DNA from: Clostridiales bacterium
GTDB taxonomy: Bacteria > Bacillota > Clostridia > Christensenellales > Borkfalkiaceae
Reading direction: 5' to 3'
Length of the DNA stretch: 57,347 nt
NCBI GenBank assembly: GCA_015055865.1
Contig: SVHK01000006.1
Span: forward strand, 1 to 57,347
Under the pieces are notes generated by a model, which made no database searches, was not told the DNA's origin, and saw nothing but the letters and a program-made list of their open reading frames with translations. Below are positions 4,567-34,410 of the stretch, one piece after another. How positions within the stretch are numbered: the first letter of the stretch is position 1; each line of letters opens with the position of its first letter. The translations under genes were made by a program, and so were the position numbers.

Positions 4567-5313
4567 ATGAAAAATACGGCGTATCAAAATCTTGCGAATT
4601 GGTTTGAATATCTTAACGACGACTGTGGCTATGAAAATTGGTCGCAGTATTTAATTGCGGTGTTGGACGAGTATTTGAAAAAAGAGAAATTGCCTTTCGT
4701 AGGGTTGGACGTTGGGTGTGGTAGCGGTTATTTTACGCGCGCTTTTGAAAAACACGGTTTTTCAATGAAAGGCTTGGACGTGTCCGTAGAGATGCTCGAC
4801 AAAGCACGTGTTCTTTCCGCTCAAGAAGGGGTGCGTTGTGAGTTTTTGCTCGGTGATATTACTAAATTCAAAACCCCGACGAGATTTTCTTTCGTTAGCG
4901 CGATTAACGATTGCTTTAATTATATACCGAAAGAAAAACTTGCTATCGCGTTTAGAAAAGTACGCGACGCCTTAAATAAAAACGGGTTGTTCGTATTCGA
5001 TATAAGCTCCGAACGAAAATTTTATAAAAAGGTTGCAAATACTGTAAGCGTGGACGACCGCGACGACGTAACCTATTTGAGCTTTAATTCAATGCAAGAA
5101 AGTAAAGTAATTATGGACGTAACGCTTTTCATAAAAAACGCGAACGGGAAATACGAACGGTTGGATGAACGGCACGAGCAGTATGTTTATAATGAAAACG
5201 AGATAACGAAAACGCTGGAAGAAGTCGGATTCGAGGTTTTGAAAGTGGAAGGACATTTGGGCTCGGATAAACGAGAAAGCGATAGAATTACTTTTATAGC
5301 GAAACGGAAGTGA
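4567..5313 (+). CDS. Class I SAM-dependent methyltransferase
   Basis: A 248-aa Rossmann-fold methyltransferase with motif I LDVGCGSG at residues 47-54 and an acidic second strand (GLDVS) about 20 residues later. The substrate cannot be read from the sequence; relatives of this size act on small molecules or are uncharacterised. It is 4 bp upstream of hslO and probably cotranscribed with it. Confidence 0.85.
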   Translation: MKNTAYQNLANWFEYLNDDCGYENWSQYLIAVLDEYLKKEKLPFVGLDVGCGSGYFTRAFEKHGFSMKGLDVSVEMLDKARVLSAQEGVRCEFLLGDITKFKTPTRFSFVSAINDCFNYIPKEKLAIAFRKVRDALNKNGLFVFDISSERKFYKKVANTVSVDDRDDVTYLSFNSMQESKVIMDVTLFIKNANGKYERLDERHEQYVYNENEITKTLEEVGFEVLKVEGHLGSDKRESDRITFIAKRK

Positions 5314-5317
5314 GAAG

Positions 5318-6151
5318 ATGACGAACGTATTGAGAACTTTAATTTGGGACGAGCAAGTATCTTTAACGATTGCAGATACGACGAAAATCGTTCAAGGAGG
5401 AATTAAATTGCATAATTTATCCGGCGAAAAAGCGGAAACGTTCGCGAAAGCGTTATCTTTTTTGACTTTTATGGCTTCGGCGTTAAAAGAACAGACGGGA
5501 GAAGTTTCGCTCTCTATTAAAACGAGCGGAAAAATTCTTGATTTGACGGCTTCAGGGAACGCTAATTTAAATATTCGCGGATATTTAGATTGGCAAGAAA
5601 CTGCGCTAACGCTTTTTGGCGACGGGGCGTTGACTTTGGTTCGTGACGACGGGTATTCACGTCCTTTCGTGGGTGCTTGCGGATTGATAAAAGACGGTAC
5701 GCTTGACGAGAATTTTGAAGAATATTATCGTATAAGCGAGCAACTTCCAACCTTTATTTCGACGAAATACGTCGAAAACGGCGAGGGCAGGGTTGCGTTT
5801 TCAGGGATTATCGTGTTACAGCCTTTGCCGTTTGCAAGCGAAGAAACGCTTGCAAAAATTCCCGTTCAAATGGAGCGAATGAAAATATTGGAAGCGGTTA
5901 AGGAAAAGGGTGTTTTTGAAACGTCGAAAGAAGTTTTCGGTGTGGAAGAAAAGGCGTGTAGCTTTAAAACCGCGCAGTACCGTTGCAACTGTTCAAGGGA
6001 GTATTTAAAAGGAGTACTCGTTTCGTTAGGAGAAGACGAGTTTAGAAATATAGTAAAAGAGGACGGCGCGGTGCGAGTGCATTGTCATTATTGCAATAGC
6101 GATTATACGTTCGATGAAACGGACGCGAACGAGATTTTTAAAAACAAATAA
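5318..6151 (+). CDS. hslO: Hsp33 redox-regulated molecular chaperone
   Basis: Cytoplasmic holdase chaperone switched on by oxidative unfolding. The C-terminal zinc-binding redox switch is intact: C-X-C at Cys223/Cys225 and C-X-X-C at Cys256/Cys259. The N-terminal domain fits the Hsp33 fold. At 277 aa the length is slightly below the usual 290. It follows the methyltransferase by 4 bp and is followed by the TPR gene after 12 bp, so all three probably share one transcript. An oxidant-sensing chaperone is common in anaerobic Clostridia. Confidence 0.92.
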   Translation: MTNVLRTLIWDEQVSLTIADTTKIVQGGIKLHNLSGEKAETFAKALSFLTFMASALKEQTGEVSLSIKTSGKILDLTASGNANLNIRGYLDWQETALTLFGDGALTLVRDDGYSRPFVGACGLIKDGTLDENFEEYYRISEQLPTFISTKYVENGEGRVAFSGIIVLQPLPFASEETLAKIPVQMERMKILEAVKEKGVFETSKEVFGVEEKACSFKTAQYRCNCSREYLKGVLVSLGEDEFRNIVKEDGAVRVHCHYCNSDYTFDETDANEIFKNK

Positions 6152-10794: not shown

Positions 10795-13311
10795 ATGTCG
10801 GAACAAGAAAAGAAGAATCTCAACCAAGAAACGGCTAATTCGACGGCGGAAGAAATGGCTCTTATGATTGAAGGGCTTTATAATGGTATCGTCGCAAGCT
10901 TGAAAAAACTGAAGGGTGAAATTTGCAACGAAATGAAGTATTCGGCTTTGCAAATTAACGCTTATTGCGAAACGATTCAACAAGAAGCTACGCAAATGGT
11001 TGCGAAGAACCACGCAATGATTCTTGCCGTTTCCAAAGAACTTAAATATGGTTATCAACAAAACCAAATGATTCACGAAGACCTCGTGCATCTTATTAGC
11101 GACGATTTGTTTGCAAAAATCGAAGAATGGTCGGGTAAAGTTGACGCTGTATCTGAAAAGCTCGAAGCCGTATCTGAAATAGAAAAGGTTATTCCTGCTA
11201 TCGAAGAAGCGTCTAAAGCGTTGACGGAAAAAATCGAAGCTTTAAAAGATAACGACGAACTTCTTGAAAAAATTAAAGAAATCGTTGCTGGTACATACGA
11301 AACGGTAGATTATGCGAAGATTAACGATATGATTGATTCTTCCGTAATCAAAGCGGAAAATTCTATTATTGAACAAACGCAAGAAATCGTAGAAAACGCG
11401 ACCGTTGCTTCCGCGGAACAAAGTCAACAAATTTTGAACGCTATCAACGCGATTGAAATTCCCGAAGCGGTTGATTATACCCGTATCGTCGAAGAAGTAA
11501 GCGAACGCGTTCTTGAATTGTTGCGCGAAGAATTTACTGTTTACCAAGAAGAAGTTATCGACGAAGAACTTGAAGAAGAAATTCTTGAAGATGAAGTTGA
11601 AGAAGAATCGGAAGAAACGGAAGAACTTGTAGAAGAAGTTTCCGAAGAAGTCGTAACCGAAGAAACGACGGAAGAAGTTGCATCTGAAACGGAAGAAGTC
11701 GTTGAAGAACCCGTTGAAGAAACCGTTGAAGAAACCGTTGTAACGGACGAAGTTGTTGAAACGGTTGAAGAACCTGAAGAAGAAGTAGTCGTTGAAAAAC
11801 CCGTTATTACGGAAATCGATTACGATAGAATCGTAGAAAGAACGGCTGAAAAAGTAGTTGAATCGTTGCCTTTTGTTGAAAAGATTGACTATAAGCAAAT
11901 TGAAGAAATGATTCAAGCCGTTGTTTTGGACGTAGTTGTTCTTGCGGACGAAGTTGCGGATAAGGTCGTTGAAAAGCTTCCTCAACCCGAAGCTCCCGAA
12001 GCGATTGATTACGAACGTATCGCGGAAGTTGTTGCTGAAACTGTACCCGCGCCTGAAATGATTGACTACGAACGTCTTTCCGAAACGGTAGTATCTAAGA
12101 TTCCTGCTCCCGAAGCAGTTGATTACGACCGTTTGGCAGAAACCGTTCTTGCAAAAATACCTGCTCCCGAAACGGTTGATTACGACCGTTTAGCAGAAAC
12201 CGTTCTTGCAAAAATGCCTGTTCCCGAAACGGTTGATTACGACCGTTTGGCAGAAACCGTTCTTGCAAAAATGCCTACGCCCGAAACGATTGATTACGAA
12301 GCTCTTTCCGATATAATCGTATCGAAGATGCCTAAGCCCGTTGAACCGGCTCCCGTTGATTACGAAACGCTTGCGGAAATGGTTGCGGCGAAGATGGTTG
12401 CTCCGACTTACGACGTAGTGCTTGACGCGGAAGGGATTGAAAACGTTGCGCTTGGCGTTTGTGAAAATCTTAACGTAACGGCTCTTGCGGAAATGGTCGT
12501 TGAAAAGTTGAATTACGAACAGTTGGCGGATATGGTTGCAGAAAGACTTGCCGTAAAGATTGAATTCGTTTCCGAACCGATTGTGGAAGTAGAAGAACCT
12601 ATTGAAGAAGTAGTTGAAGAAGCGCAAGAAGAAACCGTAGTAGAAGAAACGACTGAAGTAGTTGAAGAAGTTGTAGCGGAAGAACCGGCTGAAGTAGTTG
12701 AAGAAGTCGTAACTGAAGAAACGGTTGAAGAGCCCGTTGATGAAATCGCGGTAGCGCAAGATTCCCAATATATGGAAGAAGGCAATGAGCTCGTTGACGC
12801 AGAAACGGGTATGGTCGTTCGTTTAAAGAGAAGCTTTACGGCGAAGCTTAAGCAAAGCGACGAAGAAGTAAAAGTTTTCTACGATATGATTAAAAACGAA
12901 CTTGCTTCGTATAAGAAAGTTAAGTCGACTGTAAGTTGGCACGGCGATAGATTTAATCTTGGTCGCGCAACCGTTGCGAAAATGAACATTTGCGGAAAGA
13001 CGCTTTGCTTCTACGTAGCGCTTAACCCCGAAGACCCTGAATTAAAGACGACCGTATATCATCAAAAGAACGTTGGCGACCAAAAAGCTTATCAAGCAAC
13101 ACCTTTCAAAGTAAAAGTTAAGAGTGAAATGGGCGCAAAGAGAGCTATTCGTTTGGTTGGTGTTCTTGCGGAAAAGATTGGTGCGGTTAAAAAGCCCGAT
13201 TATGTAGCTACTGATTACGTTCAAGAATTTGCATACGAAACGACGAAAGAGTTGTTGGATAAAGGCTTGATTAAAGAAACGAAAGAAAAGAAAATTGCGT
13301 TTGAATTCTAA
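10795..13311 (+). CDS. Large acidic repeat protein with a conserved C-terminal domain
   Basis: An 838-aa cytoplasmic-looking protein. Residues 1-160 are helical and coiled-coil-like, about 250-340 are almost only Glu/Val/Thr, and about 395-520 carry repeats of the form PETVDYDRLAETVLAKMP (three nearly identical 57-bp DNA copies at 12118-12288, degenerate copies on both sides). A second Glu/Val stretch follows. The last about 150 residues form a compact domain (RSFTAKLKQ, KVKSTVSWHGDRFN, GKTLCFYVALNP) that I recall as a recurring uncharacterised C-terminal domain in Clostridia. No signal peptide. Function unknown; a scaffold at a surface or cytoskeleton is speculation. Confidence 0.8.
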   Translation: MSEQEKKNLNQETANSTAEEMALMIEGLYNGIVASLKKLKGEICNEMKYSALQINAYCETIQQEATQMVAKNHAMILAVSKELKYGYQQNQMIHEDLVHLISDDLFAKIEEWSGKVDAVSEKLEAVSEIEKVIPAIEEASKALTEKIEALKDNDELLEKIKEIVAGTYETVDYAKINDMIDSSVIKAENSIIEQTQEIVENATVASAEQSQQILNAINAIEIPEAVDYTRIVEEVSERVLELLREEFTVYQEEVIDEELEEEILEDEVEEESEETEELVEEVSEEVVTEETTEEVASETEEVVEEPVEETVEETVVTDEVVETVEEPEEEVVVEKPVITEIDYDRIVERTAEKVVESLPFVEKIDYKQIEEMIQAVVLDVVVLADEVADKVVEKLPQPEAPEAIDYERIAEVVAETVPAPEMIDYERLSETVVSKIPAPEAVDYDRLAETVLAKIPAPETVDYDRLAETVLAKMPVPETVDYDRLAETVLAKMPTPETIDYEALSDIIVSKMPKPVEPAPVDYETLAEMVAAKMVAPTYDVVLDAEGIENVALGVCENLNVTALAEMVVEKLNYEQLADMVAERLAVKIEFVSEPIVEVEEPIEEVVEEAQEETVVEETTEVVEEVVAEEPAEVVEEVVTEETVEEPVDEIAVAQDSQYMEEGNELVDAETGMVVRLKRSFTAKLKQSDEEVKVFYDMIKNELASYKKVKSTVSWHGDRFNLGRATVAKMNICGKTLCFYVALNPEDPELKTTVYHQKNVGDQKAYQATPFKVKVKSEMGAKRAIRLVGVLAEKIGAVKKPDYVATDYVQEFAYETTKELLDKGLIKETKEKKIAFEF
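12118..12288 (+). repeat. Three tandem 57-bp coding repeats
   Basis: Units at 12118-12174, 12175-12231 and 12232-12288 encode 19 residues each (VDYDRLAETVLAKxPxPET). They differ at only a few bases; degenerate units flank them on both sides within the acidic repeat protein. Confidence 0.9.
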
Positions 13312-13345
13312 TTTGAGTTCGTATAAACAAAAATAAGAGAGATGA

Positions 13346-13382
13346 GGGCTGAAAATTACAAACTTTCGGCCCTTTCTTTTTT
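13346..13382 (+). terminator. Terminator after the acidic repeat protein gene
   Basis: GGGCTGAAA pairs with TTTCGGCCC (13346-13354 with 13364-13372), followed by TTTCTTTTTT. Confidence 0.85.
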
Positions 13383-13420
13383 AACGCGTTTAATTTTATA
13401 AGTTTAAATAATTAAAAAAA

Positions 13421-13560
13421 GGGCAATGCTTTGCGTGATTGCATTCTTATCGTTACATACCTTAGGCAAGCCTAAAGACGTTCTTGGCTTGGTTTTATTG
13501 ATAAGAAAAAGCAAGCGGAAACGTTGATAAATTCTTTATAAGTTTTGCTATTGATAAGGG
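13421..13560 (+). ncRNA. Structured leader upstream of RNase J
   Basis: Several nested pairings lie before the gene: GCAAT/ATTGC (13423-13442), the perfect hairpin TTAGGC-AA-GCCTAA (13462-13475), and CTTATC at 13446-13451, which can pair with either of two GATAAG copies (13500-13505 and 13553-13558). A regulatory 5' UTR is plausible because RNases often control their own mRNA, but this is inference. Confidence 0.35.
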
Positions 13561-13585
13561 GATTATAAAGGAGTAAATTAAAAAA

Positions 13586-15544
13586 GTGAACGAAAAAACG
13601 AGAAGAAAGACTTTTGTGGTAACGGAAAACGCCAAAAAGGTTTTAGAAGAAAGAGCTCGCGTATTGGGGAAAAATACGAATAGCTCAAGACGAAAAAAAG
13701 GCGGAAATTCAAAAAAATCGATGGGTACGCCAATGGACGTCAGCGCTTACTCTATAGGCGAACAACCTAGTAAACCCGTAAAAAAGAAAAAAACGCCCAT
13801 TCAAAAGACGGATAAAAACCAAAAAGGCGCGTCCCTTCCTTCAGGTCAAACGGCCGTTGAATTGGATAAGTCACCGCGAACGAATAAAAAGAAAAAAGTA
13901 AAAATTATTTTTCTTGGTGGCGTAGGCGAAATTGGAAAAAATATGACGGCAATCGAGTGCGGAAACGATATCGTCGTGATAGACGCTGGGTTGACTTTTC
14001 CGAATAACGAGGACATGCCTGGGATTGACGTCGTCGTGCCGGACGTAACTTATCTTGCGCAAAATAAGGATAAAGTTCGTGGTGTTTTGTTGACGCACGG
14101 TCACGAGGACCATATCGGCGGTTTGTCGTATTTAATGAAAGAGTTGAACGAGAATACGCCTATTTACGGAACGAAACTGACTTTGGCGCTCGCGGATAAC
14201 AAATTGCAAGAGCACAATTTGCACGACGTAAACGAACGGGTAGTAACCGCTGGAGAACGCATAAAAATTGGCGTGTTTGACGTTGAATTTATTAACGTAA
14301 ATCACTCTATTTCCGGTGCTGTGGCGCTTGCGATTCGTACTCCGGCAGGGCTTATTTATCATAGCGGTGATTACAAAATAGATTTAACGCCAGTTGCGGG
14401 TGAGCCGATTGATTTAAAACGGATAGCGGAGCTTGGAAAGGAAGGGGTTTTGCTTTGTATGGGCGAATCGACGAATATCGAACGCGCTGGATATACAATG
14501 AGCGAAACCGTCGTTGGTACGACTTTGGACCATCTCTTTTCAGAGAATATGAATAGGCGTTTGATTATCGCTACGTTTGCCTCCAACGTGCATAGATTAC
14601 AGCAAATTATCGACCTTGCCGTAAAATATAGGAGAAAAATCGCTTTGTCGGGACGTAGTATGTTTAAAGTCGTCGATGCGGCGGTTAAAATAGGCGAGTT
14701 AAAAATCCCCGAAGGCATTTTAATCGATATTGAAAAGACGAAAAATTTTTTTGACGGCGAACTTTTGATTGTTTCAACGGGTACGCAGGGTGAACCAATG
14801 AGCGCTTTAACGCGAATGGCGTCGGGAGAGTTTAATAAAGTCGTAATTGGAGAAAACGATACGATTATTATTTCCGCGACCCCTATTCCCGGTAACGAAA
14901 AGCCCGTTTATCGAGTAATTAATAACCTGTATAAACAGGGCGCAAAAGTTATTTATCAAAGCTTGGAAAAAATTCACGTTTCCGGCCACGCCTGTCAAGA
15001 AGAGCATAAAATTTTGCTTACGCTTTTAAAACCGAAATTCTTTATTCCCGTGCACGGTGAATACAGACATTTAAAACTCCACGCACAATTGGCGCAAGAA
15101 TTGGGTATGCCGTCGAGGAATATTCTCATCACGGAAATAGGAAATTGTGTAGAGTTGACGGAAAATTCTATTAAGCTTGCGGGAAATATTCCGGCTGGAA
15201 CGAGATTAATCGACGGAGAAGGTTTTGAGGATTACGGAACGAGCGAAGTAATGAAAGATAGATTGAAAATGTCCTCTGAAGGCATTTTTGCCGTTTCTCT
15301 TGCCGTAGCAGGAAACTACGTGATTAACGAACCGATTATCGAAGTACGCGGGTTTATGTTCTCGGAGAATAACGATTTAGAAAAAGAGCTTAAATCCGTC
15401 GTGCAACGCGCGGTGGAGACTTACGATTATTCGTGTGGAAGTAAGGACGAATTTGCGATTTTCGTTCGAAAGTCTTTGCAAAATTATTTATATAAGAAAA
15501 CGAAACAATCTCCGCTTATTATCGTATCCGTTTTAGACGTATAA
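13586..15544 (+). CDS. rnj: Ribonuclease J with extended basic N-terminus
   Basis: Metallo-beta-lactamase/beta-CASP ribonuclease (endo- and 5'-3' exonuclease) of RNA decay and maturation. The zinc motif HGHEDH is at residues 171-176, and the later beta-CASP motifs (GTQGEP, HVSGHA, HGEYRH) are all present. The core starts near residue 104; the first about 100 residues are a Lys/Ser-rich low-complexity extension absent from Bacillus RNase J1. The GTG start has a proper RBS (AAGGAG). It heads a gene run with trmR and trhP. Confidence 0.95.
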   Translation: MNEKTRRKTFVVTENAKKVLEERARVLGKNTNSSRRKKGGNSKKSMGTPMDVSAYSIGEQPSKPVKKKKTPIQKTDKNQKGASLPSGQTAVELDKSPRTNKKKKVKIIFLGGVGEIGKNMTAIECGNDIVVIDAGLTFPNNEDMPGIDVVVPDVTYLAQNKDKVRGVLLTHGHEDHIGGLSYLMKELNENTPIYGTKLTLALADNKLQEHNLHDVNERVVTAGERIKIGVFDVEFINVNHSISGAVALAIRTPAGLIYHSGDYKIDLTPVAGEPIDLKRIAELGKEGVLLCMGESTNIERAGYTMSETVVGTTLDHLFSENMNRRLIIATFASNVHRLQQIIDLAVKYRRKIALSGRSMFKVVDAAVKIGELKIPEGILIDIEKTKNFFDGELLIVSTGTQGEPMSALTRMASGEFNKVVIGENDTIIISATPIPGNEKPVYRVINNLYKQGAKVIYQSLEKIHVSGHACQEEHKILLTLLKPKFFIPVHGEYRHLKLHAQLAQELGMPSRNILITEIGNCVELTENSIKLAGNIPAGTRLIDGEGFEDYGTSEVMKDRLKMSSEGIFAVSLAVAGNYVINEPIIEVRGFMFSENNDLEKELKSVVQRAVETYDYSCGSKDEFAIFVRKSLQNYLYKKTKQSPLIIVSVLDV

Positions 15545-25016: not shown

Positions 25017-25754
25017 ATGCAAATAAAAAAACAAAGAGTAAAAGAAAAAACAGGAATCTTCCTTATAATGCTCTGTTGGTTAGTATATGCGTGTTCATAT
25101 ATCGGCAAGCTCAATTATGCCGCGAATATTAATTCTATAATGGATTTTTATAAGGTCGGTCATGCGGAAGCTGGCGCGGTAAGTACGTTTTTCTTTTTTG
25201 CTTACGGCGTCGGTCAGGTCGTCAATGGATTACTTTGCAAAAAATATAATATTCAATGGATAATCTTTTTTAGTTTGCTTTTGTCGGGCACAGCCAATTT
25301 AATAGTCGGCGTTTCCACAAACTTTTCGGTCGTGAAATACATGTGGTTGGTGAACGGTTTTTCTATGTCGATATTGTGGCCGAGTCTAATACGCCTGTTA
25401 TCGGAAACGCTCTCGAAAAAAGATATGGCGAAAGCAAGCGGAATTATAACGCATAATCCCGTCGCGCTAATCAAGTTTAAGCGCGCCGAAAGACAATCGC
25501 GCGAGAGTTTATCTAAGGGTGAAATTGTAGCGTTTTTAGAGCGTATTAAAGAGCCTAAATACGATGAAATTAGGCAATTCGCCTACATACTCTATTTTTT
25601 TGGTATGCGCCCCTGCGAGATTGACGAAGAAACGCACCGCGAGGGAGATTTCTTTATCACTCGTAACCGTAAACGCAAAAATGGGAAAATCGAGTACAAA
25701 AAAATACCTATACCTACGCAGGCACAGGAATTGATTGATTGGGATAACCTTTAA
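25017..25754 (+). pseudogene. MFS transporter 5' part fused in frame to a tyrosine recombinase fragment
   Basis: Residues 1-144 are the first four or so membrane segments of an MFS transporter (organophosphate-antiporter-like; YIGKLNYAANI, WPSLIRLLSE). At about residue 145 (near 25450) the sequence switches abruptly to a phage-type integrase (NPVALIKFKRAERQSRESLS), carrying the first catalytic Arg box GMRPCEI. The frame stops at 25754 through a frameshift. The transporter lacks about two-thirds of its length. This is a deletion junction, not a known protein architecture. Confidence 0.8.
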
Positions 25755-25990
25755 CTGCGGATTTGCACCGATTAAAGATAAACGACGTAATAAAAGATTT
25801 GCTTGCTGGCAAAACGGCGTATTGTTTGCGACATACCTTTGCAACTGTTTGCCAACAGTACGTTCGTCCCGATATCGTCGATATTTGGATGGGCGATTCA
25901 CCGCAACGACTCGTTGGAAAAGTCTATACACACTTCCCCGACGAGTTTATGTATGAGCAAATGCAAAAGGTGCAATTCCCGTTGCCGTAA
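25449..25990 (+). pseudogene. Tyrosine recombinase (integrase) remnant, frameshifted
   Basis: The catalytic domain is split over two frames. The first part ends at 25754; a one-base shift around 25745-25752 puts the rest (PLTADLHRLKIND onward) in another frame up to 25990. The second part keeps the LRHTFAT box and the Tyr nucleophile context VGKVYTHF. The N-terminal arm- and core-binding domains are gone. Its 3' end points at the tRNA cluster 129 bp away, the usual layout for an element integrated at a tRNA gene. Confidence 0.85.
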
Positions 25991-28293: not shown

Positions 28294-28344
28294 AGTAAGG
28301 AAAAATTATATTAATATAAACACTGCTTATACCAATAAATATTT

Positions 28345-28391
28345 GCTTCCGTAGTTAAATGGATATAACAGTCCCCTCCTAAGGGCTGAGT
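28345..28391 (+). pseudogene. 5' half of a tRNA-Arg (CCU) gene, interrupted
   Basis: GCTTCCG followed by the D-arm TAGTTAAATGGATATAAC and the anticodon region CCTCCTAAGGGCT reads as the 5' half of tRNA-Arg(CCU); after GGCT the T-arm and acceptor 3' strand are missing. The matching 3' half lies 3.1 kb away at 31448-31491 and shares the 12-bp core CTCCTAAGGGCT. The acceptor strands can pair with three G-U wobbles. The downstream GCTGA/TCGGC hairpin with a T-run may now terminate this stub. Confidence 0.75.
28376..28387 (+). repeat. Left 12-bp att-like core
   Basis: CTCCTAAGGGCT, identical to 31448-31459, lies at the anticodon loop and 3' anticodon stem of the split tRNA-Arg. A direct repeat at this place is what site-specific integration into a tRNA anticodon region leaves. 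Confidence 0.55.
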
Positions 28392-28631
28392 AGAGTCGGC
28401 TTTTTATTGTTAAAATGCTCAAAAAGTAGCAAAAATAGGGGTTAAAACCCCAAAAAAGTGCAATTTTTGGTAGTTCGTATTAATACGCTGGAATTGATTT
28501 GGAATTATTGATTTCAAAACGGCTAAATTTTAAGCCCTAAAAAACACCTAAATTTTTGCTCGAAAATTTTCAATTTGGAATTATTTTTGGAATTAAATAA
28601 GGGCAAAGTAGAGTCAAAATTTAATATAAAT

Positions 28632-28706
28632 GTACCCTTAGTTAAATGGATATAACGGAATCCTCCTAAGATTCTATTGGCAGTTCGATTCTGCCAGGGT
28701 ATACCA
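28632..28706 (+). tRNA. tRNA-Arg (CCT), complete copy
   Basis: Complete cloverleaf: acceptor GTACCCT with AGGGTAT (one G-U), anticodon stem-loop GAATC-CTCCTAA-GATTC, T-arm GGCAG-TTCGATT-CTGCC, discriminator A, encoded CCA. It shares the D-arm and anticodon loop with the split copy but differs elsewhere. It lies 245 bp inside the left core repeat, so it may be a cargo tRNA that replaces the interrupted gene. An inverted repeat (AAGAACGCCACGA) follows at 28707-28738. Confidence 0.9.
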
Positions 28707-28747
28707 AAGAACGCCACGAATCAATCGTGGCGTTCTTAGCATATTAA

Positions 28748-29278
28748 TTATTGGCTTTGTTTGTTATTTATACGAATAATTTGAGAGTTGTTGGATTTAA
28801 GTTTTATTATTTGATTTTCTTCGATATTAAAATTCCTAGCAAAGATATATATCATTTTCTTTTCTTGTGTTTTTACTGAAATACAATGGCATTCATATAT
28901 TCGGTACCGCAAAATGTTTAGTGTTGGATTAATGTGATAAAGATTTTCGCGGATATATATAAAACACAAAAGAATATGTATTAAAAATATAAAAATTATA
29001 TCGAATAATATATTAGTATAGGGTATAGCGAAAGCAGTTAAAACCAATAAGGAAAAATGAGTAAAATACTGTTCGCCTGTGTGATTTTTGTAATTAAGAA
29101 TTTTATATTCGATGCCCAAAGACCTTTTACTAAATTTTGATGTTCTAATAGCAATAAATATTGAAGCGATAACACCTAAAAGGAACAATTTTAAGTTTCC
29201 CCATTTGCCGTAAACTTGTTTTTTATACGGATGAGTGCGTTGATATTCAATTACTTCTTCAACTGTTAAGCCTTTCAT
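28748..29278 (-). CDS. Small membrane protein of unknown function (element cargo)
   Basis: A 176-aa protein that begins MKGLTVEEVIEYQRTHPYK. It has hydrophobic segments at about 28-45 and 77-112 (two or three membrane passes) and a polar C-terminal domain of about 60 residues. It is AT-rich and Ile/Asn/Tyr-rich, unlike the core genes around it, which points to horizontal origin. A GGAGG ribosome site lies upstream at slightly long spacing. I do not recognise the family. Confidence 0.65.
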   Translation of the reverse strand: MKGLTVEEVIEYQRTHPYKKQVYGKWGNLKLFLLGVIASIFIAIRTSKFSKRSLGIEYKILNYKNHTGEQYFTHFSLLVLTAFAIPYTNILFDIIFIFLIHILLCFIYIRENLYHINPTLNILRYRIYECHCISVKTQEKKMIYIFARNFNIEENQIIKLKSNNSQIIRINNKQSQ

Positions 29279-29614
29279 AAAACTTTCTTACCTCCAAGCG
29301 TTTCTCGTATTAACACGATTATCATATCCGAGAAAGAAAGTCAAGCTCTTTTACGTAAAAATTTGAAAATATTTTAAAAGAATTTTTTACTGCTACCAAA
29401 AAGGGTAGAGAAGTCGTTATAATTAATGAAGCGAAAATCGGGCTTCCCGATTGTTCTTAGGAAGAGGACAGAATTGGCAAAAATCGGGCGATTTTGGCAA
29501 TTCTCTTTACCTGCTTTCTAAAACTACGAAATTGCCATTTGGTGCATTTCCTTATCCTGCTCTATAAAATATGGTATTTTGGTGCAGTGGACAAACCTTT
29601 TGCTTGTAAGTTCT
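29279..29614. other. Non-coding stretch inside the tRNA-Arg insert
   Basis: No convincing frame on either strand. It contains inverted segments such as AATCGGG/CCCGATT near 29435-29452 and the repeated ATTTTGG/GGTGCA words near 29540-29585. Nothing else stands out. Confidence 0.4.
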
Positions 29615-30298
29615 TTACGTTGTTATTCCGTTTGCTTGTCTAAATTTTTCTACGATTCGGTACGTTGATTGAGTCTTTACGTCGCTATTATTTAGAATAA
29701 ACTCTCTTAATTTGTTAAGGTCAACGCCTTGTAAAATTGGATTGTTTTCGTTTAAGTTTCCGTAAAGATTAAACTCGTTTTTAAGTTTTTCAATCGTTAT
29801 AGGTTCGCTTTCGGTAGGAGAGACGTCAACGGTTTTCTTGGTTTTACCGCCTTTGCTTCCAGCTGTTTTTCGAATCTTTGAAAGTTCTAACTTGCGCTTT
29901 GCTATGTTGAAATACGCATCGATAGGTGGTTTAAGTTTAGGCTTATCTTCTCCTAAAAACATAAACGCACATATTGCTTTTATGTAAGCTGCGCACTCGC
30001 TATCCGTCATTAAATCTAAAGCAAGGTAGAAGTTTTCTTGAAAGTAAAAATACTTTCTATCACGCATTAATGCACGTGGTACGGTTTCGTTTACTTCAAA
30101 TTCTTTGTCGGCAGTAAGTAGTTCTTCAATGCAACTCCAAGCGTATTTTTCATCAGCCTCGGCAAGTTGTTCTAACGGTTCATCGGTATAAATAAACTTG
30201 CAAATTCGCTTAATCATACGTCCGGCTTTTTCGTCTGATAGGGTATTTAGAGCGTCTAAATACTCATCATAAAAGATAAATGTTTTTAATTTGTTCAA
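29615..30298 (-). CDS. DUF6291-like protein (phage/plasmid replication-associated)
   Basis: A 227-aa protein starting with TTG behind a perfect AGGAGG (plus 30305-30310). Residues 1-65 and about 80-135 are two copies of the same motif (FYDEYLDALNTLSDEKAGRMIKRICKFIY and FYLALDLMTDSECAAYIKAICAFMF, each read across a break), a pattern known from DUF6291 proteins in clostridial phages and integrative elements near replication genes. A Lys-rich linker and a C-terminal helical region follow. It supports a mobile origin for this insert. Confidence 0.75.
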   Translation of the reverse strand: MNKLKTFIFYDEYLDALNTLSDEKAGRMIKRICKFIYTDEPLEQLAEADEKYAWSCIEELLTADKEFEVNETVPRALMRDRKYFYFQENFYLALDLMTDSECAAYIKAICAFMFLGEDKPKLKPPIDAYFNIAKRKLELSKIRKTAGSKGGKTKKTVDVSPTESEPITIEKLKNEFNLYGNLNENNPILQGVDLNKLREFILNNSDVKTQSTYRIVEKFRQANGITT

Positions 30299-30589
30299 TG
30301 TTTTCCTCCTAAATTTTATTTTTGTAGAATGTTTATAGGCGTATCTGCGTTGCCTTTTTAGTTAGCACATAGGCATCACCTCCTTAAAATTATTTATTTA
30401 ACCCTTTCACTAAAAGGGGCTATTTTTAAGCAAAAGTTTAGGCTAAAACTGAAAATTTATTTTCTAATTATCAAGCTGTTAAAACGCCGAAAATATTCCG
30501 TCGCAAATTTATCCCCTCAATAGGTAGGCAGCGAAAACGCTAAAAACTTAACCTTTTTTAAAAAGTTTTTTCCTTTCACTATAGCCTCT

Positions 30590-31105
30590 AGAAAATTTGA
30601 GCCTAAAATTCCTGAAGCAACGCATGGGGAAGGTCGTAAGCCTTATATGACGGTAAGACAAACCATATCAAAGTATCCTGTGATTAGCGCAGGAGAAGAA
30701 AATAAGCTTATTCCTAATCATAGGTGTGCGAATTTAAAGCCCATCCTTTTAGAAAGACTTAGTTATACACCACATGATGGTGGGAGCCGTACTGATTGGC
30801 CAGACAGGCTGGTTCTTGCTTGCCATAAAACCTTTAAGGGACATACTGACGTTTATGGTAGAATGAAATGGGACGAACCATCTCCAACGTTAACCGTTAA
30901 ATGTTTTAGTCTTTCAAACGGCAGATTTGGTCATCCAGAACAAGATAGGGCTATATCTTTGAGAGAGGCGGCAGCGTTACAAACTTTTGCTGACGATTAT
31001 GTTTTTTACGGTAGCGTCCAAGAAATTGGCAAGCAGATTGGTAATGCCGTACCAGTATTATTGGCTAAAGTTCTTGGTAAATATATTTTAGCTAATCATA
31101 ATTAA
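30590..31105 (+). pseudogene. C-terminal remnant of a DNA (cytosine-5) methyltransferase
   Basis: The frame is in phase from about 30590 (RKFEPKIPEATHGEGRKPY) through 31105. It carries the target-recognition region and the last conserved motifs (PSPTLTVKCFSL; HPEQDRAISLREAAALQTF; IGKQIGNAVP, motif X). The catalytic Pro-Cys motif and SAM-binding N-terminal half are absent, and no start codon with ribosome site exists upstream. No cognate restriction endonuclease is visible. It is a leftover of a restriction-modification or orphan methyltransferase gene. Confidence 0.85.
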
Positions 31106-31447
31106 TTTCTGTTTCGGCAAGTTGTTAAGGCAGTAGCCCGTAACACGATTTGCGAAGGGAGTGAAAAATAACTAAAAATCGGGTTTTGCAATTCCAGATT
31201 AATTCCAAAAAGTGGGGGATGACTACATTTGAGATTCTATTTGGTGCGATTCTCAACGGGAGTGGCGAAATTTTGGGATTCAATTTTTCCGATTTGGAAT
31301 AGAAATTGAATTATTTTCATCAGAAAAGTTAGAAAACGATAGAAATTTTTCGTAACGATACGAATTTTTCGAAACAATTTATTTGACAAAACGAATTTTA
31401 TGTTTGACTTTTAATATAAAAGATTTAATTTCTAAGCACATTTCAAA
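31106..31447. other. Non-coding AT-rich stretch before the right core repeat
   Basis: No convincing gene. A 27-codon frame at 31219-31302 (MTTFEILFGAILNGSG) has a G-rich sequence immediately before it but no proper RBS spacing; I did not call it. Confidence 0.4.
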
Positions 31448-31459
31448 CTCCTAAGGGCT
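31448..31459 (+). repeat. Right 12-bp att-like core
   Basis: CTCCTAAGGGCT, the second copy of the core at 28376-28387, placed at the start of the detached tRNA 3' half. Confidence 0.55.
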
Positions 31460-31491
31460 AGTTGTGGGTTCGATTCCCGCTGGGAGTACCA
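31448..31491 (+). pseudogene. 3' half of a tRNA-Arg (CCU) gene
   Basis: From the anticodon loop onward: CTCCTAAGGGCT, T-arm GTGGG-TTCGATT-CCCGC, acceptor TGGGAGT, discriminator A, CCA. There is no 5' half upstream, only AT-rich DNA. The acceptor matches the 28345 half better than the complete tRNA at 28632. A normal terminator still follows, as expected for the original tRNA gene. Confidence 0.8.
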
Positions 31492-31518
31492 AAAAAACCA
31501 CATTTTTTGTGGTTTTTT
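31491..31518 (+). terminator. Terminator after the tRNA-Arg 3' half
   Basis: ACCACA pairs with TGTGGT within A-rich and T-rich arms, followed by six T. Confidence 0.8.
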
Positions 31519-31714
31519 ACTATTTTTATGGCAAAAATCGGTCGTTTTTGGAATAATTTTGAACTATTCCACTATATCCACCCACTAATATTAATTTAGA
31601 GTGTATTAAATCAACTTTGGTTAAGCCTTTACTTGATAAGAAAGCATCAATCTTTTCGGCATCTCTACGAGGGATGCTCGTCCCCCAAACTTTATTCAAT
31701 TACCTCCAAGTTTT

Positions 31715-32644: not shown

Positions 32645-33532
32645 TTAATTTTTATTTTGGTGGATTTTTTTATACTGCAACGGGGTATAACCCGTTGTTT
32701 TTTTGAACGTTTTAGAAAAATAATTAGGCGAGTCAAAAGCAAATTCTTCGGAGATTTGCGTGACAGTCATATCTGTTTTTCGTAACAGTTTCTTGGCACG
32801 GTCTATTTTTAAATTGGTAAAATACGCCATAATCGTTTTACCGGTCGTTGCTTTAAATTGTCGAAATAAATAAGAACGGTTATAATTTAATTTTTCGCAT
32901 AAATCCTTGATACTCAAATTCCCTTTAACGTTTTCGTTTAAAATTTCAATAATCCGTTTCGTGATTTGTCCGTCAAAATCTTCTTTAAATAAAAAAGTTT
33001 CGTTAGAGTTTTCTTTTTCAGTTTCGTTGCGCATTAAATTAATTAATAAAATTTCTAATAAATTTTTAATCAATTGTTGTCCGCCAAGCGTAGGGCGTTC
33101 GCGAAGTTCCATCCTTTTTAAATCAGGATTCGAATAGGGTAAATCGAACGTCTTTTTGCTTTCTTCTATAATCATATATACAAACTTGCGCAAATCCTTA
33201 TCAAGGTTGAGCTTTTTTTCTTCAAAGAACCTTATTGCTTCGCTTTTACAGACAAACGAAATAATAAACACGTTCGGTGCTTTCTTTTCATTCGCTGATA
33301 AAGTATGAAATTCGTTAGGTTTATGGAATAATAATTCCCCTTCGTTTAAAATTATTTCTTTACCGTTTGCCGTACACACGATAGACTCTTTGTCTGCGTA
33401 AACAAGTTCCCAAAAGTCGTGGCTTTCACCTTTACTTGCAAAATTTTTGTCAAATTCAAAATAATGAATAGTAACTATTTTGCTAACCAAAAGTAAATTT
33501 TCAATTTTGTGTTTGTAATAGTTTTGTTTCAT
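32645..33532 (-). CDS. AraC-family transcriptional regulator
   Basis: A 295-aa protein. The N-terminal cupin-like sensor domain (HDFWELVYADKESIVC, NEGELLFHKPNEFHTL) would bind a small ligand, probably a sugar. The C-terminal about 100 residues hold two helix-turn-helix motifs (SIKDLCEKLNYNRSYLFRQFK and VTQISEEFAFDSPNYFSKTFK) and the GYTPLQYKK ending. It diverges from the PIG-L/NagB-like/PfkB/aldolase genes and is the obvious candidate regulator. The ATG follows the -10 box by only 6 bases, so the mRNA should be leaderless. Confidence 0.93.
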   Translation of the reverse strand: MKQNYYKHKIENLLLVSKIVTIHYFEFDKNFASKGESHDFWELVYADKESIVCTANGKEIILNEGELLFHKPNEFHTLSANEKKAPNVFIISFVCKSEAIRFFEEKKLNLDKDLRKFVYMIIEESKKTFDLPYSNPDLKRMELRERPTLGGQQLIKNLLEILLINLMRNETEKENSNETFLFKEDFDGQITKRIIEILNENVKGNLSIKDLCEKLNYNRSYLFRQFKATTGKTIMAYFTNLKIDRAKKLLRKTDMTVTQISEEFAFDSPNYFSKTFKKTTGYTPLQYKKIHQNKN

Positions 33533-33705: not shown

Positions 33706-34410
33706 ATGAGAGTATTAGCTATTGGTGCGCATCCTGATGACATCGAAATCGCTTGTAGCGGTACGTTGGCAAAATGCGTTAAGCGTGGAGATACTGTTAT
33801 TGTTTGCCACGTTTCCAGCGGTAATTTGGGGCACGTCGTAATTCCGCCCGACGAACTTCGCGTTATTCGTGCAAACGAAGCAAAAAAGGCGGGGGCAATG
33901 GCTGGGATTGAAGTTATTTGCGCCGGCTTTGACGATTTAGAGATTTATGATAACAATAAAGAAGCGAGAGACAAGCTCGTGGATATTATCAAATATGCAA
34001 ATCCCGACTTTATTATTACGCATAACCCCGACGACTATATGCCCGACCATACGGCTGTGGCTCGGTTGGTATTTGACGCAAGCTTTACGGCTACTTTACC
34101 TAATTATAAAAGTAAATATAAAGAACCTGCAAAATTGGTGCCCATCTATTATATGGACACTCTTGCAGGCGTGAATTTTAACCCCACTGAATTTGTTGAT
34201 ATTTCCGAAGAAATAGATTTGAAAATCAATATGCTTGAATGTCATGAAAGCCAACTCGTTTGGATGCGTGAACACGACGGCATCGACTTCGCGGATATGG
34301 TAAAGACCTGCTCTCGCTATCGCGGTTATCAATGTGGGGCGGATTATGCGGAAGGTTTTAGACAATGTCAGGTGTATTTAAAGGGTACGACAAAAAGATT
34401 ATTACCGTAA
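33706..34410 (+). CDS. PIG-L/LmbE-family N-deacetylase
   Basis: A 234-aa zinc-dependent deacetylase that acts on N-acetylated sugars or related compounds. The first zinc/catalytic motif AHPDD is at residues 8-12, and the second, HNPDDYMPDH, at 106-115. RBS AAGGAGAG. As first gene of a set with a NagB-like enzyme, a PfkB kinase and an aldolase, it probably removes an acetyl group from an amino sugar, a role NagA or AgaA has in other operons. Substrate not known. Confidence 0.92.
   Translation: MRVLAIGAHPDDIEIACSGTLAKCVKRGDTVIVCHVSSGNLGHVVIPPDELRVIRANEAKKAGAMAGIEVICAGFDDLEIYDNNKEARDKLVDIIKYANPDFIITHNPDDYMPDHTAVARLVFDASFTATLPNYKSKYKEPAKLVPIYYMDTLAGVNFNPTEFVDISEEIDLKINMLECHESQLVWMREHDGIDFADMVKTCSRYRGYQCGADYAEGFRQCQVYLKGTTKRLLP

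Follow-up and report, generated by a model that had tools for sequence, protein, structure and literature searches.

The transfer RNA (tRNA) gene tRNA-Arg(CCU) in the stretch of DNA analysed here (57,347 nucleotides of contig SVHK01000006.1, Clostridiales bacterium assembly GCA_015055865.1; hereafter the window) very probably marks an integration hot spot at which tRNA-replacing elements with a tyrosine integrase stack up, and the window itself would be a decayed composite of two such elements. In the proposed mechanism, the elements would cross over inside the 7-base anticodon loop of tRNA-Arg(CCU), CTCCTAA. The tRNA would not be rebuilt, and a complete tRNA-Arg(CCU), located about 160 to 320 bases inside the left end of the element, would take over its function. 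Because the same loop is kept in the carried tRNA, the latter would be a target in turn, so that elements stack and the tRNA-Arg(CCU) of the cell is replaced repeatedly. This reading is built on split tRNA genes accompanied by replacement genes, on sharp boundaries, on an occurrence in several genera, on nesting, and on the mosaic halves found in the window.

The host 5' half of tRNA-Arg(CCU) occupies positions 28345 to 28375 of the forward strand and runs into the loop at 28376-28382, which is common to the 28 left junctions kept in the comparison. A second copy of the loop (31448-31454) and a 3' half (31455-31491) stand on the same strand at the far side of an insert, element 2 (28383-31447). 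An initial annotation of this DNA had described a tRNA-Arg(CCU) split at its anticodon by a shared 12-bp core, and this is borne out: CTCCTAAGGGCT is present at 28376 and 31448. What the other left junctions have in common with the window is only the 7-base loop; it is the two junctions of the window that share 12 bases. The 12-base sequence has exactly two copies in the window and two in the whole genome of 51 contigs, and a chance repeat is ruled out because the sequence is found nowhere else than at both junctions. ARAGORN calls no tRNA at either half alone, and neither half together with its element side gives a tRNA, so that no functional tRNA is regenerated at either end. When the halves are joined, a check that had been proposed at the outset, the program recognises a tRNA-Arg(CCT) with a single T-C mismatch in the anticodon stem. 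The right half had been called terminator-equipped and is indeed followed by a terminator-like hairpin (31492-31518, forward strand). The left half had been called promoter-equipped, which is unsupported, since a scan of the window returned a near-expected number of promoter-like sites (16, against 12.8 expected with a standard deviation of 3.1) and none just upstream of 28345. Another terminator-like hairpin lies at 28381-28404, at the very start of the left arm of element 2, and a transcript from the split 5' half might therefore stop there.

The complete and different tRNA-Arg(CCU) that had been noticed inside the insert is recovered by ARAGORN at 28632-28706 on the forward strand. It scores 56.7 bits to RF00005, where nine complete tRNA-Arg(CCU) genes of relatives reach 58.5-60.7 bits in the same comparison; a scan of the window at the gathering threshold missed it. 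The idea that a broken host tRNA was replaced by a cargo tRNA also holds, in that this gene is the sole intact tRNA-Arg(CCU) found in a genome that is 94.5% complete. A pattern running from its loop to its T-loop has two matches in the genome, the complete gene and the right half. There are 35 tRNA matches in the genome, 33 of them above the cut-off, and the tRNA-Arg anticodons among the 30 loci listed are CCG and CCU. A second tRNA-Arg(CCU) gene could merely be absent from the assembly. The tRNA at 28632 presumably now serves the cell.

The arrangement is not confined to the window (compared genomes and loci are cited by their G and L numbers). The joined site was matched in 41 of 57 genomes of the genus. 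In 17 of these, the window included, a script found a split 5' half and, 164-320 bases further on, a complete tRNA-Arg(CCU) that is often a different one; three more loci, with altered loops or another tRNA type (L037, L038 and L040), were recognised by eye. At L039 the left half stands at the end of a contig, 15 loci show a complete tRNA alone and one (L042) a right half alone, while in four (L048, L052, L054 and L058) a short sequence of another kind interrupts the T-loop of a tRNA copy. Outside the genus set, the same script finds the layout at seven loci (L075, L078, L079, L080, L083, L088 and L166), a count that leaves out L076, which is the G004 contig under its public name. Altogether 30 left junctions were obtained, of which two chance matches were removed. 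Right halves are present on the same contig in the window, G035, G014, G018, G006 and G004, more weakly in G038, and on other contigs in G037, G053, G042, G029 and G003. A pattern search for left halves was unusable, its spacing missing known sites and its control returning more hits than the pattern, and no result is drawn from it.

Some loci depart from this arrangement. At the four loci with a broken T-loop, 5' tRNA pieces run into short sequences of a GTTCGCG type, with a complete tRNA 120-135 bases further on, and two more such pieces lie upstream in L088; these sequences represent a short insertion of another kind, which disrupts tRNA copies. On the reverse strand of L220 (G069, 5000-5377), two complete tRNA-Arg(CCU) genes stand 303 bases apart, the second being of the type carried by element 2; this pair does not fit the split-half layout. 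The carried tRNA-Arg(CCU) of G003 (L200, L040) is of a sequence type (GTCGGATTAGCTCAG...) very different from that of the rest of the genus.

The enzyme is best seen in G004, where an integrase of 472 amino acids (P0001, PF00589) adjoins the carried tRNA. It has matches at an E value of 1e-20 in five of the 57 genus genomes. In named genomes there are 77 related integrase loci, 12 of which have a best segment of at least 55% identity. A tRNA lies within 1.2 kilobases (kb) of the integrase in 10 of the 12; it is tRNA-Arg(CCU) in nine and tRNA-Ser in one (L084), and a split half lies upstream in seven of the nine (L075, L076, L078, L079, L080, L083 and L088). The same layout is seen in a tRNA-Ile(GAU) at L086, where the integrase is 30% identical: after a 5' half come a complete tRNA-Ile whose acceptor stem differs and then the integrase, the 3' half lies at a distance of about 7 kb, and the acceptor stems of the outer halves are complementary. 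Among the 77 loci, 34 have a tRNA within 1.2 kb, and besides tRNA-Arg(CCU) the combination of a split and a complete gene was found by blastn only in L086; further cases may be hidden, because the same test missed the divergent half of L076. No integrase relatives were detected on plasmids at an E value of 1e-30. In IMG/VR, 14 related loci are 24-34% identical, one short segment of 39% excepted. The carried tRNA matches 19 phage records at 60-90% identity, which is uninformative.

It could be imagined that the small cassettes without an integrase are a class apart, non-autonomous and dependent on an integrase that a relative supplies in trans. The elements of G006 and G014 are of this kind, being 5-6 kb long, with both ends and restriction-modification genes and no integrase on the contig. 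Loss of the integrase after integration would look alike, however, and element 1 of the window, described below, is such a case; a separate class is therefore possible but somewhat doubtful. In the stacking mechanism that we favour, the integrase of element 2 may be gone or may have been supplied in trans.

The initial annotation had taken both halves in the window to come from one tRNA gene, and had named alignment to different tRNA genes as the outcome that would speak against this. That outcome is what was found, and the claim has to be given up. The empty site that had been anticipated in relatives exists in G016, of the same genus, where an intact tRNA-Arg(CCU) is located between gdhA and relatives of the window genes at 32645-33532 and 33706-34410. 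Over 28345-28385, core included, the left half is identical to this tRNA (41 of 41 bases) and likewise to the intact tRNA of G020; with the intact tRNA of G050 the identity extends over 42 bases (28344-28385). The right half is just 82.6% identical to the G016 tRNA over 46 bases. The right half has closer relatives among carried tRNAs. Positions 31448-31597 (150 bases) share 95.3% identity with the carried tRNA of the integrase-bearing G004 element and the sequence flanking it, and 31460-31583 are 99.2% identical over 124 bases to L088 (RGIG6162), where the tRNA is complete and an integrase adjoins it. Further along, in a remnant at 31519-31701, positions 31605-31701 are 77.3% identical to a later part of the G004 element (L043, 7337-7433) and 31604-31701 are 89.8% identical in L082; between 31597 and 31605, the window lacks about 2.4 kb that contain the integrase in G004.

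As the halves derive from different genes, the window holds remnants of two elements. Element 1 would be a relative of the G004 and RGIG6162 elements that lost its integrase region and gave the window its right half (31448-31491), and element 2 would sit between the host 5' half and this 3' half. The earlier version of events, in which a single element split and replaced one host tRNA and the misfit of the halves reflects decay, accounts for the presence of both halves and of one complete tRNA. It is very unlikely, given that the right half and 100 bases beyond it fit the carried tRNA of an integrase-bearing element at 95-99% but the G016 tRNA at only the value given above. The imperfect pairing of the left half, which had been ascribed to decay, is instead explained by the mosaic origin.

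Neither the left arm of element 1 nor the 5' half of the tRNA it carried is present in the window. In relatives, these make up a stretch of about 180 bases between two loop copies (176 bases in both G004 and L088), which was probably lost here via recombination between two copies of the loop. Three orders of events fit. Element 2 may have entered the carried tRNA of element 1, after which the short piece was lost; element 1 may have landed next to element 2, again followed by the loss; or the piece may have been lost first, element 2 then entering a hybrid tRNA. In G014 (L024, reverse complement of 12276-14301), a hybrid tRNA is found at about 2 kb from an additional tRNA 3' half. The hybrid has a carried-type 5' half and a host-type 3' half and scores 23.4 bits, which suggests that such hybrids do arise.

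The boundaries of the elements are sharp. The left arm of the element 1 type is 90-98% alike over 130 bases past the core in five genomes, in which the 40 bases before the core are only 38-68% alike. A single right end, shared by G053, G043 and G037 at 86-92% over 200 bases, precedes 3' halves that are 79-97% alike. The left arm of element 2 (28383-28631, forward strand) and its carried tRNA recur in G123, of another genus, with 92.9% identity over 365 bases (28342-28706), and stand there after another 5' half; within the genus, by contrast, the gdhA regions of the window and of G016 share 77.4% identity. The arm is also present in a third genus, in G145 (90.6% over 350 bases), where it precedes a different carried tRNA; carried tRNAs have thus been exchanged too. 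That the same arm follows quite different 5' halves, with the boundary at the loop, and that the same right end precedes different 3' halves, argues against an origin that involved no site-specific recombination, in which the tRNA gene was duplicated in tandem and decayed and unrelated insertions came between its copies. Several 5' pieces close together, the copies broken in the T-loop, and the split and complete tRNAs with the same 5' half in L026, L078 and L080 would suit such a history, which nevertheless seems highly improbable. Slighter still is the chance of an assembly artefact at a repeated tRNA segment. All the genomes are drafts, and the core stands at the edge of two contigs (G051:C14 and G040:C82), but many assemblies made independently show the layout, as does a separate record from a phage collection, and the 12-base repeat of the window is short.

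The left arms also carry a mark that could be related to the crossover. The D-arm GGATATAAC on one side of the 7-base loop is matched, on the other, by an element arm that approximates GTTNTATCC. The comparison covers 28 left junctions, of which 19 differ in their first 15 bases, though these are not 19 independent lineages. At positions +6 to +15 past the core, a mean of 6.16 of 10 bases mirror those on the tRNA side; shuffled sequences give 2.60, with none of 2000 reaching the observed value, and shifted registers at most 3.26. This mirroring is as expected of putative core-type binding sites of a tyrosine integrase, and an integrase whose overlap corresponds to the anticodon loop has been described (PMC8371274).

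Carried tRNAs have themselves served as landing sites for later elements. In G051 (L031), an arm of a type termed element A, about 320 bases long, ends in an intact tRNA. In L051 (G031) and L079 (SIG386), the tRNA at that spot is cut at the loop by two other element types, each of which then brings its own complete tRNA; the spacings are 318 and 317 bases, compared with 320 in G051. A third case is found in another genus, where the element A arm of L222 (G214) ends in a tRNA whose 5' half is that of the intact G051 copy and which is cut by an element of the G037/G053 type, with its own tRNA 220 bases on. Furthermore, both halves of the split tRNA of G004 are as in the complete carried tRNA of G039. 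Together with the composite in the window, the three nested stacks (L051, L079 and L222) point to carried tRNAs being hit by later elements, which looks new; no description of nested tRNA replacement was found in the searches made of open-licence papers. We further think it rather probable, with less assurance than for the hot spot itself, that a relay is at work. Each element would disable the tRNA in use and make the cell depend on its own copy, which is the next landing site; a core tRNA would be swapped across genera, and small defence cassettes that lack an integrase may exploit these ends in trans.

Several observations weigh against the stacking of tRNA-replacing elements. As had been stated initially, no integrase is seen between the junctions in the window; an element-encoded tyrosine integrase is met with in relatives, including those of G004 and MT835493.1. 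It is also absent from several other elements that have both ends, for example those of G006 and G014. Conversely, in L077, L085 and G001 an integrase or its fragments lie beside a complete tRNA without a recognised split half. The left arm of the window itself reaches only 4 of 10 in the symmetry test, and none of the 11 right ends compared shows symmetry (1-4 of 10). Pairing between the stems of two halves is by itself weak evidence that they share an origin: 9 of the 49 non-cognate pairs are likewise free of mismatches, and the halves of G004 have one stem mismatch. Finally, 16 of the 57 genus genomes have no match to the site, and all genomes are drafts, the comparison covering their assembled sequences.

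Defence genes of the restriction-modification or phosphorothioation type are found in the elements that have not decayed. The cargo lists come from scans of some of the proteins of each element. G006 has a BsoBI-type endonuclease, a methyltransferase, and SIR2-like and GmrSD-type proteins; G014 has Dam-like and Dcm-like methyltransferases; and G004 has a type IIG restriction enzyme, a methyltransferase and a DolB-like protein. An element of about 35 kb in MT835493.1 encodes SspABC-, SspD/BrxP-, Pbe-, PcfJ- and PcfK-like proteins and a G2P-like replication protein. MT835493.1 (L166, L167) is named 'Bacteriophage sp.' in GenBank, and its defence island lies between tRNA-Arg(CCU) halves. No structural gene was seen among its 15 scanned proteins, and it looks more like a bacterial scaffold bearing an island than a phage.

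The closest parallel is tRNA-dependent lysogeny in actinobacteriophages, which has in common with the present elements a tyrosine integrase, a short core in a host tRNA gene, a tRNA that is not rebuilt and a carried tRNA of the same isotype (PMC10865867). It differs in three respects. The need for the tRNA was shown by experiment there (PMC10865867) and is presumed here; the non-decayed elements described here show, among their scanned proteins, defence genes in place of known phage genes; and their carried tRNA adjoins the left end, keeps the core and is reused by later elements. Phage Lj965 of Lactobacillus johnsonii has been named as a likely case elsewhere (PMC10865867), and phages without tRNA-dependent lysogeny are reported (PMC12429752). 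In Rhizobium prophages resembling vTRX32-1, a tRNA-Leu is split at a 12-base motif and a complete tRNA-Leu is likewise carried, but that tRNA lacks the motif, which is said to prevent further integration (PMC8631192), whereas here the loop is kept and hit again. Prophages and islands of Sinorhizobium meliloti also inactivate a host tRNA, which the carried one replaces (PMC11476347). Islander islands share the tyrosine integrase and the tRNA target, the anticodon loop being a known crossover site, but rebuild the tRNA at one end, unlike the present elements; the published Islander filter discards candidates without an integrase (PMC4383910). Tycheposons, likened by description only, have a tRNA at their border and a tyrosine recombinase, and the split-plus-replacement layout does not figure in that description (PMC10872708).

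Replacement of a host tRNA by an integrating element, known from phages and islands of actinobacteria and rhizobia, is extended here to elements with defence genes in uncultured Clostridia and their relatives. The nested loci provide sequence evidence for carried tRNA genes as new integration sites, of which, according to a 2024 paper, none existed (PMC11476347). In the stacked left ends, past elements can still be read off. If the cell needs the carried tRNA, the persistence of element remnants and the strong divergence of one core tRNA between close relatives would both be accounted for. The question of how islands become unlosable is thereby made directly testable.

The body of element 2 is found, among the 57 genus genomes, only in that of the window (G000) and in G004, with whose element it is collinear in three short stretches (29189-29394, 29430-29523 and 30392-30461). 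At 28390-28397, GTAGAGTC occupies the position at which other left ends carry the mirror of the D-arm. On the reverse strand, an open reading frame of 176 amino acids (28748-29278), initially taken for a membrane protein, matches no Pfam family and only phage families of unknown function (phrog_20903); its first 30 residues are 73-80% identical to reading frames in L043, L075 and L082, of which the one in L043, the G004 element, has a TnpV match. The DUF6291-like protein and the methyltransferase remnant of the initial annotation are both confirmed. The former is encoded at 29615-30298 on the reverse strand (PF19808, 48.8 bits). The latter, at 30647-31105 on the forward strand, keeps the C-terminal part of a C5-cytosine DNA methyltransferase (PF00145, 49.8 bits), from position 238 to 322 of the 324 in the profile. 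The cargo of the window is decayed, and its phage-type content is limited to PHROG families of unknown function and a methyltransferase. The right end (31106-31447) stops at the core copy, and the right arm has no relative among the loci compared. The frameshifted recombinase at 25449, the only one initially noticed, bears no clear relation to the integrase of these elements (28 of 112 columns identical, E value 0.037, in one comparison). At 25017-25990, an MFS transporter gene runs into this broken tyrosine recombinase beside a tRNA-Tyr gene, and the recombinase (25474-25990) matches PHROG integrase families in two frames.

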